This document shows, one piece after another, positions 38,404 through 42,531 of a stretch of DNA of 64,000 nucleotides. Source of the DNA: Stappia sp. MMSF_3263 (GTDB lineage Bacteria; Pseudomonadota; Alphaproteobacteria; Rhizobiales; Stappiaceae); the NCBI RefSeq assembly GCF_030733745.1, contig NZ_JASHIK010000021.1, forward strand, positions 1 to 64,000. The letters are read 5' to 3'. The position numbers were made by a program, and so were the translations under genes. The notes beneath the pieces were generated by a model. The model searched no databases, was not told the origin of the DNA, and saw nothing but the letters and a program-made list of their open reading frames with translations. Each line of letters opens with the position of its first letter. Position 1 is the first letter of the stretch.

Positions 38404-38964
38404 TTACGAGGCCGGCAGCAGCACGGTGTCGACCACGTGGATGACGCCGTTCGACTGGTCGACATCGGCGATGGTGACGGTCGCCATGTTGCCCTGGCCG
38501 TCCTCGATCATGATCTTGCCGTCCTTGGTGCGAGCGGTGAACTCGCAACCGCCGACGGTCTTGACCGGATGGGCTCCGCCATCATCCGCGATCATCTTGT
38601 TGATCGCCGAGGACATGGCATCGGCGGCCACCACGTGGCAGGTCAGGATCCTGGTGAGCTGGTCCTTGTTTTCCGGCTTCAGCAGCGTGGCGACTGTCCC
38701 CTCGGGCAGCTTGTCGAAAGCGGCATTGGTCGGGGCGAACACCGTGAACGGCCCCTCGCCCTGCAGCGTCTCGACGAGGCCGGCGGCCTTGACCGCGGCG
38801 ACGAGGGTCGTGTGATCCTTCGAGTTGACGGCATTCTCGACGATGTTCTTTTCCGCATACATCGGTGCGCCGCCGACCATCGGGTTGTCGGCGAAGGCGG
38901 CAGGGGCGGCCAGCGTGGCGGCGAAGGCGGCGGAAACGAGAAGCTTTGCAGAACGCGTGAACAT
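38404..38964 (-). CDS. Secreted fasciclin (FAS1) domain protein
   Basis: The 186-residue protein has a signal peptide (cleavage near AAFADN) and one FAS1 domain with the H1 box GPFTVFAPTNAAFDKLP and the H2-like GVIHVVDTVLLP. Such proteins mediate adhesion or are stress-linked envelope proteins. AGGAG precedes the ATG. It lies just downstream of the sigma/anti-sigma pair on the same strand, with its own ECF-like promoter at 39042-39067, so it is probably a member of that regulon. Confidence 0.92.
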   Translation of the reverse strand: MFTRSAKLLVSAAFAATLAAPAAFADNPMVGGAPMYAEKNIVENAVNSKDHTTLVAAVKAAGLVETLQGEGPFTVFAPTNAAFDKLPEGTVATLLKPENKDQLTRILTCHVVAADAMSSAINKMIADDGGAHPVKTVGGCEFTARTKDGKIMIEDGQGNMATVTIADVDQSNGVIHVVDTVLLPAS

Positions 38965-39041
38965 GAAGTTTCTCCTGTGAATTCGTTTTGACGGTGCCGG
39001 GCGGCGGCTTGGAGCACGCCTTTTCCCGACACATCAGGAGC

Positions 39042-39067
39042 TACCGGAGGATGTCCGGAAAGGTTTC
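39042..39067 (-). promoter_or_regulatory. ECF-type promoter of the fasciclin gene (predicted)
   Basis: On the minus strand GAAACC and CGGTA are separated by 15 bp, about 78 bp before the fasciclin start. The preceding TG and following TTT, and the trailing GCT, also resemble the promoter at 40727-40752. Confidence 0.7.
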
Positions 39068-39200
39068 AGTCCGAACGATCACGGGTTCGTGAGATAACGA
39101 GGCAAGCAGCCACGGGACGGGGAGCACGACGCACGCGTCGTCCCGCCGGGATACCGGCGGCGGCTGTCACGAGATGGTTCAGGAAGCTCCGCGCCGGCCG

Positions 39201-39938
39201 TCAGTCGCGGATCAGCTGACCGGAATAGACGACGGGGCCTGTCGGGGCGCCGGTCGCCGACCCGCCCGCCGGCTCGACGCTGACCGCAAGCACGGCATCT
39301 TCGGCGAGCGATCCAAGATCGAGATCGGCGGTCACCCGGTGCTCGGCATCGATCACGCCGAGCGAACGGGGCTGCGCACCGGGTGCCACATACCAGAGCT
39401 CGAGATCGCGCCCCTCGGGCTTTTCCGCCGCGACCGGGCGGACGCTGACGGTGCCGGAGGCAAGGTCCACGCGCACGATAAGCGCCGGCAGGCCGGCATC
39501 GCGATTGACCACGGCGACATAGTTGCCGCCGTCGCCGGCGGGTACAGCGGCAGGGTCGAAGAGCGGGCGTGCCATGTAGCCGCCGCCAAGTCCGAGGCAG
39601 AGCGCGATGATACCGGCGAGCCAGACCGGCGCGGCTGCGGACGGGCGCGCGGATGGCACGGGAGCAGGAGCACCCGGGAATGCCGGTTCGCCCGCACGGG
39701 CGCCGGACGACTGCGGGTCCGCCCCGATCTCGGCAAGGACGCGTTCCAGGATGCCAGCGGGCGGCGCGATCTCCACGGTGCCGGCGCCAAGGGGCCCAAG
39801 CCGGTGTTCCCACATGCCGATCTCGGCGTCGAGACGGTCGTCCCCGGCACGCAGGTGCTCGACCCGGCGGCGCTCCGCCAGGGACAGCGTGCCGAGCACA
39901 TACTCGCCGGCCAGGATTGTGCGTTCCTCGTCCGTCAT
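39201..39938 (-). CDS. Anti-sigma factor, RskA-like
   Basis: The 245-residue membrane protein has a cytoplasmic N-terminal anti-sigma region (ILAGEYVLGTLSLAERRRVEHL, DAEIGMWEHRLGPL), one transmembrane segment (VWLAGIIALCLGLGGGYMA, about residues 105-124) and a periplasmic domain ending in ELWYVAPGAQPRSLGVID, as in the RskA family. It should hold the partner sigma factor at the membrane until a signal releases it. Its start overlaps the sigma-factor stop by 4 nt. Confidence 0.9.
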   Translation of the reverse strand: MTDEERTILAGEYVLGTLSLAERRRVEHLRAGDDRLDAEIGMWEHRLGPLGAGTVEIAPPAGILERVLAEIGADPQSSGARAGEPAFPGAPAPVPSARPSAAAPVWLAGIIALCLGLGGGYMARPLFDPAAVPAGDGGNYVAVVNRDAGLPALIVRVDLASGTVSVRPVAAEKPEGRDLELWYVAPGAQPRSLGVIDAEHRVTADLDLGSLAEDAVLAVSVEPAGGSATGAPTGPVVYSGQLIRD

Positions 39939-40567
39939 CGGTCACCCAAACAGGCTTTCAGGGCGATCAGGCCCCGATGCAGCCATGTCTTGATCGTTCC
40001 GACCGGACGGTCGAAACGCTCGCTCAGATCCTCGCGGGAATAGCCTTCGTAATAGGCATAGAGGACGCAGCGCCTCTGGTCCGTCTCCAGAAGATCGAGG
40101 CATGCCCGCAGCGCGCCCAGATCCCATGGAGCGGGATGTTCCGTCTGGTCGGCGAGGCGTTCGAGGATGTCGCCATCCTCGGCCCCCTGCCCGTCCCCCG
40201 ATGCGCCGGTCGTGGTCAGCGCGCCCGGGAGGCCTGTTCTTGCACTTGTTCGCAACTCATCGATCGCCGCATTCCGGGCAACGGCCGCCAGCCAGGATAT
40301 CGGCCGGGCGCGCGCCTCGTCGAAGCTGTCCGCATAGCGCCAGATCCGCACATAGGCGTTCTGCAACACATCCTCGGAAATGCTCCTGTCCCTGCAGATA
40401 CTGACGATGACGCCGAAAAGTTTCGCGCTGGTTCGCGCGTAAAGCGTCTCGAAGGCCGCACGCTCTCCCGCAGCGACACGGGCGAGCAGCACGGCAAGGT
40501 CGTCGCCGGCGGAGGCGCCAGTCGCGGAACGCGGTTTATCGGGATTGTCGCCCGGCGAAAGGGTCAT
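39935..40567 (-). CDS. ECF RNA polymerase sigma factor
   Basis: The roughly 210-residue protein has sigma region 2 (AFETLYARTSAKLFGVIVSICRD...YVRIWRYADSFD) and region 4 (YYEGYSREDLSERFDRPVGTIKTWLHRGLIALKACL). I use the ATG at 40567 (MTLSPGDNPDK); an earlier in-frame ATG gives 231 residues with an implausible hydrophobic start. It is coupled to the RskA-like anti-sigma gene and flanked by two genes that share a promoter motif, which I infer is its target. Confidence 0.9.
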   Translation of the reverse strand: MTLSPGDNPDKPRSATGASAGDDLAVLLARVAAGERAAFETLYARTSAKLFGVIVSICRDRSISEDVLQNAYVRIWRYADSFDEARARPISWLAAVARNAAIDELRTSARTGLPGALTTTGASGDGQGAEDGDILERLADQTEHPAPWDLGALRACLDLLETDQRRCVLYAYYEGYSREDLSERFDRPVGTIKTWLHRGLIALKACLGDR

Positions 40568-40726
40568 GAACAGATGGCTCCAGAACGCACAATCTATGAC
40601 AAGAACGGCCCGGGTGTCGATCTTGCGCAAAGCGCAAGGCCCGTCCCCGTCTTTCCCGATACGCGGCGCGGAACCGAGCGGACCTAATTCACATCGCGCG
40701 CCGTCGGGATTTTTTTCCGCCTTGTT

Positions 40727-40752
40727 GAAACCTTTTCCGCCACCGGCCGGTA
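40727..40752 (+). promoter_or_regulatory. ECF-type promoter of the DUF7282 gene (predicted)
   Basis: GAAACC (40727-40732) and CGGTA (40748-40752) are separated by 15 bp, about 70 bp before the gene start at 40823. The match to the promoter of the fasciclin gene includes the spacing and parts of the spacer (TTT, CCG). Confidence 0.7.
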
Positions 40753-40822
40753 ACTAAGCCAAGCACGGAGGAAAACCGCTGCTTTCAAGAACACTTAAGT
40801 GCAAGCAAACACAGGAGTTGTC

Positions 40823-41230
40823 ATGAAACGCATTCTTCTCACCCTCGCCCTGGTCACCGCCGCCGGCACCGCCTCCGCGGACATGGGCAAGATGGGCGTC
40901 GAGGCTATGGACCAGTCGGTCGCCAACGGCATCGTTTCCGCGGCCAAGGTGACCGCGACCGACAATGGCTGGCTCGTCGTCCACCGCACCGACGACACCA
41001 TGAAGCCGGGGCCGGTTGTCGCCTATGCACCGATCCGCTCGGGCGAAACCATGGACGTCGCGGCAATCCTGACCGAGCCGGTCGCCTCGGGCGACAAGCT
41101 GATGCTGATGATCCACGGCGAGGACGGCGGCATGAAGACCGGCGCGTTCGAATACACGCTGGGCGCCAAGGAAGACGGCCCGGTGCGTGTCGACGGCAAG
41201 CTGGTGATGACCGTCATCACCGCCCAGTAA
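40823..41230 (+). CDS. Secreted DUF7282-like protein
   Basis: The 135-residue protein has a signal peptide (cleavage near TASADMG) and a mature domain with WLVVHRTDDTMKPGPVVAYAPI and LMLMIHGEDGGMKTGAFEYTLG, which fits the DUF7282 pattern. Function is unknown. I start at the ATG at 40823, preceded by AGGAG; an ATG at 40799 is in frame but lacks such a site. It is divergent from the sigma gene, has an ECF-like promoter and ends before a strong terminator. Confidence 0.8.
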   Translation: MKRILLTLALVTAAGTASADMGKMGVEAMDQSVANGIVSAAKVTATDNGWLVVHRTDDTMKPGPVVAYAPIRSGETMDVAAILTEPVASGDKLMLMIHGEDGGMKTGAFEYTLGAKEDGPVRVDGKLVMTVITAQ

Positions 41231-41466: not shown

Positions 41467-42531
41467 ATGAGTTTTTCCCGACAATCCGGTATTCGCGCCG
41501 TCATGGTGCTGGCACTCGCGGTCACAGGCGGGGCAACGGGAACCGCCTGGGATCGGGCCCTTGCCTCAGAGACGGCCTTCAAGGAGAAGCCGGTGAAGAT
41601 CATCGGAACCGCCGCCTATCGCGAGCGTATCGCGGTGAGCAGCGACGCCGAGCTTGTCGTCGAGCTGCGCGAAAGCCCCTCGCTTGGCGACGATCCGGAA
41701 GCCGGCCGCCTGATCGCCAGCCGCAGCAGCCGCCTGGAAGGCCGGCAGGTTCCCGCCCCCTTCTTCCTCAAGGTCGACAGCACACTCCTTGTCCCGGGAA
41801 CGCCCTACGCGTTGCGGATCGAGCTGTCGGATCCCGGGCAGCCCGGCTGGGAATCGCAACCGGTCAAGGTGGTGCCCCGGAGCGGCGAGGAACACGACAC
41901 CGGCGCGATCACGCTGACGCGTACCGAGGCCCTTACGTTCACCTCGACGCTGGTCTGCGGCGATATCACCGCCCGGTTCGGAATGCGCGACGAGCGTCCC
42001 GTGCTGCAGGTGGCGGACGAGGAATTCACACTCCGGCAAGTGGAAAGTGCCTCGGGGGCGAAATACGAGGCGGAGGGCGATCCCAGCACGGGTTTCTGGA
42101 GCAAGGGCGAGACGGCGCTCGTTACCCTGCGCGGCAAGCAACTGCCCGAATGCGAGTTGACCGCAACGAAGACACGGGCACCGGCCGGACTGGATCTGCT
42201 GCCCGGTTCCGACTGGGTGGTGGAGGACATCGCCAAGGGCGGGATCATCGACTTCTCGCGGGTCACGCTGGCATTCACGCGCGAGGGCACGCTTGGCGGA
42301 CGGGCGACCTGCAACAGCTATTCGACCCGCTTCGCCACCAACGGAGAGCGCATCTCGGTCGATCACCGGACGGTGGCGACGATGATGGCCTGCGCGCCGG
42401 CATTGATGAACCAGGAGGCGAAGTTCCTGTCCCTGCTGCCGACCGTGACGGACTGGCGGATCGACGAGACCGGCGCGTTGCTGCTTTCAGCCGGCGAGGA
42501 ACTGGTCGTCAAGGCGCGCCGCGACGGATAG
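41467..42531 (+). CDS. Secreted protein with YbaY-, MliC- and META-like domains
   Basis: The 354-residue exported protein appears to join three small envelope domains: an N-terminal YbaY-like beta domain (about 40-145, IGTAAYRERIAVSSDAELVVEL), a middle MliC-like lysozyme-inhibitor domain (about 155-235, FTSTLVCGDITARFG...WSKGETALVTLRG) and a C-terminal META/HslJ domain (about 240-350, GSDWVVEDI...GGRATCNSYSTRF). The signal peptide ends near ALASE. The combination suggests an envelope-stress or lysozyme-resistance role. It stands alone between two opposite genes. Confidence 0.82.
   Translation: MSFSRQSGIRAVMVLALAVTGGATGTAWDRALASETAFKEKPVKIIGTAAYRERIAVSSDAELVVELRESPSLGDDPEAGRLIASRSSRLEGRQVPAPFFLKVDSTLLVPGTPYALRIELSDPGQPGWESQPVKVVPRSGEEHDTGAITLTRTEALTFTSTLVCGDITARFGMRDERPVLQVADEEFTLRQVESASGAKYEAEGDPSTGFWSKGETALVTLRGKQLPECELTATKTRAPAGLDLLPGSDWVVEDIAKGGIIDFSRVTLAFTREGTLGGRATCNSYSTRFATNGERISVDHRTVATMMACAPALMNQEAKFLSLLPTVTDWRIDETGALLLSAGEELVVKARRDG

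Follow-up and report, generated by a model that had tools for sequence, protein, structure and literature searches.

A SigK-like ECF sigma factor locus of Stappia with predicted fasciclin and DUF7282 target promoters and a conserved promoter-like site within the sigma gene

The window analysed here, a stretch of 64,000 nucleotides from Stappia sp. MMSF_3263 (contig NZ_JASHIK010000021.1, positions 1 to 64,000), is likely to contain a small, self-contained extracytoplasmic function (ECF) circuit, in which a sigma factor would drive two neighbouring genes, for a fasciclin-domain protein and a DUF7282 protein, and would also start transcription towards its anti-sigma gene from within its own coding sequence. 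In the proposed scheme, the SigK-like sigma factor would be held by a membrane RskA-like anti-sigma factor, and both would be expressed from a housekeeping-type promoter, with no copy of the ECF motif upstream. Sigma factor released by a signal would then transcribe the fasciclin and DUF7282 genes from promoters of the TGAAACT-N16-CGT type, here in the form TGAAACC-N16-GGT. The internal start, which precedes the anti-sigma gene and is oriented towards it, would yield an anti-sigma transcript lacking full-length sigma, and the extra anti-sigma factor would exert negative feedback and permit fast shut-off. Because the third copy of the motif lies inside the sigma gene, the sigma factor probably raises its inhibitor and not itself. 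Comparison of related loci demonstrates conservation of the promoters and their co-occurrence with the sigma factor; that the neighbouring sigma factor recognizes them we infer. An envelope, aggregation or oxidative-stress role for the circuit would be a guess.

Three genes of the locus are carried on the minus strand: the fasciclin-domain gene, a predicted sigma target (38404..38964; Pfam Fasciclin, 1.4e-35; signal-like N-terminus by eye), the gene for the RskA-like membrane anti-sigma factor (39201..39938; Pfam RskA_C, PF10099, 1e-19, 71.6 bits against a cut-off of 29.4; NCBIfam anti-sigma factor model, 100.3 bits against a cut-off of 100) and the gene for the SigK-like ECF sigma factor (39935..40567; sigma-70 regions 2 and 4), whose stop overlaps the anti-sigma start. 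The DUF7282 gene, the other predicted target, lies on the plus strand (40823..41230; Pfam DUF7282, 1.1e-17; signal-like N-terminus by eye). The Pfam matches uphold the names given to all four genes in an earlier note on this DNA. Adjoining the DUF7282 gene, at 41467-42531, is a single predicted protein matching YscW, MliC (lysozyme inhibitor) and META domains.

The earlier note had reported the element GAAACC-N15-CGGTA before both genes flanking the sigma/anti-sigma pair, with extra identity around the core and at similar distances from the gene starts. The element was found exactly at 39067-39042 (minus strand) and 40727-40752 (plus strand), with TGAAACCTTT and CCGGTA-x-CT common to both sites. 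The distance from the end of CGGTA to the start codon is 77 bp for the fasciclin gene (ATG at 38964) and 70 bp for the DUF7282 gene (ATG at 40823). The corresponding predicted ECF promoters, both exact pattern matches, are TGAAACC-N16-GGTAGCTCC for the fasciclin gene (39037..39068, minus strand; conserved in related loci) and TGAAACC-N16-GGTAACT for the DUF7282 gene (40726..40757, plus strand; present in congeners and in more distant loci). They have the features of ECF promoters, namely a -35 core and a CGT-type -10 (GGT in the window) at fixed spacing before sigma-linked genes.

A scan of the 5.02-Mb genome, which had been suggested as a check, located the exact core at two places only, those flanking the sigma/anti-sigma pair. 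The core was matched 0 times in 100 shuffles of the window and four times in the whole genome when run backwards as a control, so the 11 bases of the core are not rare by themselves; the improbable part is the occurrence of both copies within 1.7 kb around one sigma gene. With up to one mismatch, the core gave 66 matches in the whole genome against 53 for the control, without clear enrichment, and its use as a genome regulon scan was dropped. The extended pattern TGAAACYTT-N14-GGTANCT, with up to two mismatches, gave four matches in the genome (control, five), consisting of the two flanking sites (0 mismatches), a site in the sigma gene (two mismatches) and one site elsewhere (two mismatches). 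This fourth match, C48:5441, lies near a response-regulator-like reading frame.

Within the family, the anti-sigma factor was detected in 15 of 87 genomes (E 1e-12). The region before the fasciclin gene carries TGAAACTTT or a near form, followed at the same spacing by a CGT- or GGT-type -10, in all 14 aligned family loci and in L118 too. The family was searched with TGAAACYTT-N13-CSGTARCTCC at up to two mismatches, a pattern read off the loci themselves; 18 of its 21 matches in the 87 genomes stand at the fasciclin or DUF7282 gene of the locus and three elsewhere, and the backwards control gave 36 matches (summed from the table). Two genomes in which the locus is present (G059 and G071) had no match to this pattern at up to two mismatches. 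Ten family fasciclin genes without an adjoining pair lacked TGAAAC at a fitting spacing; a similar TGAACC..CGTAGCT was seen at two of them (L119 and L120), and some of the others have a different, GCATCC-type element in common. Another two-block element, CTGCATCC..GTGTAC or similar, lies upstream of the fasciclin genes of L121, L122 and L123, which are without the pair, and may be a promoter used by some other ECF sigma factor.

Beyond the family, the set consisted of the best 80 of 589 fasciclin relatives in a species collection, with titles mostly of Hyphomicrobiales or Rhodobacterales; 79 of these 80 loci were scored, L168 being left out for too little upstream sequence. Sigma and anti-sigma genes lie near the fasciclin gene in 59 of the 79, and L133 (the same as L055) was left out of the 58 promoters and of the 73 sigma genes considered below. 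With a matrix trained on the family, 45 of the 58 fasciclin promoters, all from other loci, scored higher than any of 395 shuffles (best shuffle, 14.6), and 13 did not. Other stretches of the same loci gave a maximum of 18.0 and a 99th percentile of 14.8 (347 stretches) against 14.6 for the shuffles, and the stretches scoring 18.0 may include the sigma-internal site. GAAAC[TC] with a -10 GT at fitting spacing was present in 54 of the 58, and the consensus over 47 promoters of relatives reads TGAAACT-N16-CGTnnCT. A later matrix was retrained on 57 of its 59 scored promoters, and its result of 57/59 arises by construction and carries no evidential weight. Second, tandem or nearby fasciclin paralogs, each with its own upstream promoter motif, were observed in L145 (8367), L186 (6624) and L189 (6664).

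For counts across all samples, near-duplicates were merged, leaving 201 clusters from 215 sequences; the samples of the class and of the phylum partly overlap the named set, and because the samples share ancestry the counts do not represent independent events. Where a cluster combines sigma, anti-sigma and fasciclin genes, the motif is present in 91 of 107 cases and unmatched in 16. Of 45 sigma loci sampled across the class, mostly more distant, seven include a fasciclin gene, with the motif before one of the seven, and four loci from other classes, in which fasciclin and sigma are neighbours, showed no typical site before the fasciclin gene.

The 20 fasciclin loci without a sigma neighbour were divided by whether a close sigma factor is encoded elsewhere in the genome, as it is in ten (best E of 3e-75 or lower; next, 3e-54). 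Where the close sigma gene sits in trans, the motif precedes six of ten fasciclin genes and is missing from four; in the ten genomes without a close sigma factor it precedes none of the nine fasciclin genes scored. Among the ten genomes with a trans sigma factor, at least four (L289, L290, L293 and L297) have a motif-bearing fasciclin gene adjoining that sigma gene, and three of these four are genomes whose first fasciclin gene had no motif.

A DUF7282 gene belongs to the sigma locus in 11 of the 201 clusters, and the motif precedes it in ten: four from the genus of the window, five from other Alphaproteobacteria (L134, L244, L250, L251 and L369) and one from another class (L337). In L247, the one cluster without it, the gene is a distant homologue at a distance of 2.7 kb. 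On this comparative evidence both the fasciclin and the DUF7282 genes are independently well supported as predicted targets, and the small regulon of secreted proteins put forward in the earlier note gains good support from the fasciclin and DUF7282 clusters (91/107 and 10/11, respectively). The structure model of the DUF7282 protein is a beta sandwich with a mean pLDDT of 76.5. Searching with this model, Foldseek returned nothing at E 0.001 or better, and the best VIA-align match was a biofilm-associated protein domain (Z 9.4, rmsd 2.6 over 85 residues), which is not decisive, with the remaining matches under Z 8 among the 50 listed; the predicted fold is thus readable only as a beta sandwich. 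A literature search found no paper on DUF7282.

The earlier note had also stated that no such site precedes the sigma gene, which holds for the upstream region but overlooks a related site within the sigma reading frame. Ahead of the sigma gene the motif was absent in 58 of 59 loci (score below 15, up to 350 nt searched) and present in one (L163), as it also is in L202, L245 and L327; upstream autoregulation of the sigma factor as a rule was rejected at 1/59. The window has instead a housekeeping-type promoter-like site, TCGACA-N18-TAGATT (40591..40620, minus strand), which ends 23 bp before the sigma ATG and is the only sigma-70-type match within 38900-40900 (0.2 expected); a similar block stands upstream of the sigma gene in the congeners L052-L055. 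In L245 the motif stands before the sigma gene and also, on the minus strand about 250 bp upstream of it, before a divergent gene for a secreted-looking protein (possibly cytochrome P460-like, by eye). In L243, whose pair is without fasciclin, the motif lies about 1060 bp ahead of the sigma gene and precedes a gene for a secreted-looking, possibly DUF4394-like protein (by eye).

When whole loci were scanned, most of the remaining motif matches fell at one place, in sense orientation, within the sigma coding sequence. In the window this ECF-promoter-like site is CGAAACT-N16-AGTATCTGC (40394..40425, minus strand, sense), one of the four genomic matches to the clade pattern at up to two mismatches; its -10 is AGT, with a deviating first base (A), and this copy may be weak. 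The intragenic site, CGAAACTTTTCGGC...CGTATCTTG, encodes A-K-L-F-G-V-C-L-R-I-L in sigma region 2.1. GAAACT-N16-CGT is present in synonymous codons of 64 of 73 related sigma genes, a set that excludes L064 and L065, which lack fasciclin and have a distant sigma factor; when each gene was recoded by the codon usage of its own locus, as estimated from two or three of the genes there, the site was present in a mean of 0.90 of the 73, with a maximum of four (40 runs). GAAACT..CGT was found in 0/73 sigma genes at spacings of 14, 15, 17 and 18, and GAAACT-N16-CGT in 0/74 anti-sigma and 0/76 fasciclin genes. Two columns of the site rank first and third of 180 in third-base constraint, respectively: G directly precedes the Lys codon in 70 of the 73, and the -10 codon, for Arg, Gly or Ser, ends in T in 70 as well. 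In this per-column test other columns with common codons are also prominent (z 8.0 and 7.3). The Lys codon is AAA in 72 of the 73, and the Leu codon is never CTG, with TTG once (L202). Elsewhere in the sigma gene, near its 3' end, column +166 has A as third base in 59 of 72, perhaps marking the ribosome-binding site for the anti-sigma gene that comes next.

The occurrence of the intragenic site is graded by closeness of the sigma factor. By cluster, it was found in 65/68, 23/25, 16/26, 10/30 and 4/52 from the closest grade to the most distant. All ten close sigma genes found in trans have it. The phylum sample, which covered 69 of 118 places (29 close, ten chosen further Alphaproteobacteria and 30 of 44 from other classes), has it in 28/29 close, 7/10 chosen intermediate and 5/30 other-class sigma genes, and the class-wide sample has it with A, C or G before GT in 11 of 45. 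Five fairly close sigma genes (L246, L248, L249, L253 and L254) have AAG there and the site is absent. Among clusters with both fasciclin and anti-sigma genes, the site is present in 92 of 107 and absent in 15, and its median distance to the start of the anti-sigma domain is 464 nt (54 loci). The comparison across relatives thus establishes constraint on the intragenic site at the DNA level; on the same comparative basis, the site probably drives the anti-sigma gene, in negative feedback.

Conservation of this kind could in principle be a by-product of the conserved protein stretch A-K-L-F-G-x-x-L-R-I-L together with codon usage, since the Lys and Leu occur in all 73 sequences and the Arg in nearly all, and no more than two or three genes per locus supplied the codon usage behind the null model. 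This is nevertheless highly improbable, given that recoding keeps the site in a mean of 0.9 of 73 genes against the 64 seen, and given that the bases persist where the residues change: the G before AAA is kept in codons for Leu, Val or Gly (L243, L250, L251 and L258), and GT is kept where Arg is replaced by Ser (AGT; the window, L269 and L271) or Gly (GGT; L052-L055 and L261), with one Gly case, encoded by GGC (L266), as the exception. Alternatively, the intragenic site may be real and have another role, as a polymerase pause or block, as the source of a truncated sigma product that titrates the anti-sigma factor, or as the start of a small RNA. Its place near the 5' end of the sigma gene, at the median of 464 nt from the anti-sigma start, would suit such a role, and the overlap of the sigma and anti-sigma genes in the window hints at translational coupling, which an internal transcript would miss. 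On the other side, the sense orientation, the spacing and mostly the -10 base follow those of the fasciclin promoters, the third-base constraint at column +166 would fit a ribosome-binding site for the anti-sigma gene embedded in the sigma gene, and an internal promoter of this kind has been demonstrated experimentally in C. glutamicum (PMC3489674). Another role is accordingly somewhat unlikely, and a promoter for the anti-sigma gene remains the preferred reading.

It might also be that the motif is the promoter or operator of a different regulator (RpoE/ChrR, EcfG or a transcription factor) and that the neighbouring sigma gene is incidental. Of the genes of R. sphaeroides, rpoHII and RSP_1087-1091 are RpoE targets. 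The fasciclin gene of that species, RSP_1409, appears with them as stress-responsive in a table of PMC7074977, and passages of PMC10949492 state that the A. brasilense fasciclin, said there to mediate flocculation, is controlled by RpoE-ChrR, a different sigma pair. From these two cases, fasciclin genes can be run by other sigma factors, and the GCATCC-type element at some fasciclin genes without a sigma gene points the same way. The motif described here, however, tracks the close sigma factor both in cis and in trans, with 0/9 scored where that factor is absent, and it is also built into the sigma gene, so that control by another regulator is improbable and recognition by the neighbouring sigma factor is preferred.

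The window belongs to a clade in which the -10 element has shifted. Its CGGTA is a variant of the usual CGTA and was seen in the window and four congeners; GGTA stands at both promoters in the window and in these four locus-bearing congeners (10/10). The internal -10 in the genus relatives is also GGT, which displaces the Arg codon. Counted by cluster, the first -10 bases of the fasciclin and internal sites pair as C/C in 81, G/G in three, G/A in one (the window) and A/C in one, with one or both missing in 21. The arginine at the internal -10 is kept in 68/68 of the other, nearer sigma factors of the set; some more distant ones have Gly, Ser, His, Leu or Ala there, so this residue is not indispensable. 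It is conceivable from these comparisons, although we hold it at somewhat less than even confidence, that in many Alphaproteobacteria the codons of a SigK-like sigma gene carry the promoter of its own inhibitor, and that in the clade of the window a change in the -10 preference of the sigma factor from CGT to GGT was followed by the fasciclin, DUF7282 and internal promoters together, at the sacrifice of the arginine. The joint -10 change may also come from common descent alone, in one clade, and with a single clade there is no statistical power for sigma residues as an explanation of the shift.

If borne out, the locus would offer a minimal, testable ECF circuit outside the actinobacteria with gene partners of the kind known from the tuberculosis antigen regulon, to which the uncharacterised DUF7282 family would be added as a target. 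The intragenic site yields a prediction about the logic of the circuit, that the inhibitor is raised by the sigma factor, which can be tested by synonymous codon changes, and the clade with the shifted -10 may be a natural case of co-change between promoters and sigma factor in which one of the promoters is carried in coding sequence. Among the papers listed on fasciclin and ECF sigma factors, none describes such a system in its title or the opening of its abstract.

The locus shows features of the SigK/RskA type (ECF18/ECF19): an adjacent RskA_C anti-sigma factor, both sigma cysteines and a fasciclin-type target beside the pair. The start of the anti-sigma factor, ERTILAGEYVLGTL, resembles by eye the AS19-1 consensus HTLAGAYALDAL as printed in PMC7406223. 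The nearest solved sigma factor is M. tuberculosis SigK (4nqw, 6.8e-23; next, 1.4e-11), with C156 and C206 aligned to M. tuberculosis C133 and C183 (4nqw numbering, hand-counted) and with Cys in 67/68 relatives at each of the two columns. The sigma factor scored 133.9 bits with the NCBIfam SigK model NF007228, below its cut-off of 226, and is called SigK-like, not SigK, because this curated cut-off was missed. MPT70 and MPT83 of mycobacteria are fasciclin-type proteins. The mpt83-sigK-rskA cassette, described in passages of PMC7509140, is like the present locus in its SigK-like sigma factor with redox cysteines, its adjacent RskA_C membrane anti-sigma factor and its secreted fasciclin-domain target. 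The present locus differs in having a DUF7282 partner too, in a comparison made by genes and proteins. Further, M. tuberculosis sigK is stated in PMC7509140 to be autoregulated via Rv0449cp, whereas here the site lies inside the gene and none lies upstream.

Also comparable are the ECF26 systems of S. meliloti (RpoE1/RpoE4), which, in the cited parts of PMC6180224 and PMC6527743, are likewise alphaproteobacterial pairs with few targets, some of them adjoining the pair. Their elements, GGAAT and CGTC, are unlike the -35 and -10 here, rpoE4 has its own RpoE4-type promoter, unlike the sigma gene here, and the word fasciclin is absent from the main texts of both papers. A further related circuit is sigH-rshA of C. 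glutamicum, for which PMC3489674 reports, on the basis of Northern blots and primer extension, that rshA has a SigH-dependent promoter within sigH, and proposes fast shut-off. As envisaged here, sigH itself is transcribed from housekeeping promoters, and a sigma-dependent promoter within its coding sequence precedes the anti-sigma gene (PMC3489674). RshA is a ZAS-domain anti-sigma factor, unlike the RskA-like protein here, and the C. glutamicum starts lie 62-66 nt before rshA (PMC3489674), compared with several hundred nt between the site and the anti-sigma gene here. The present site further differs from that of sigH-rshA in being conserved at the codon level in many species.
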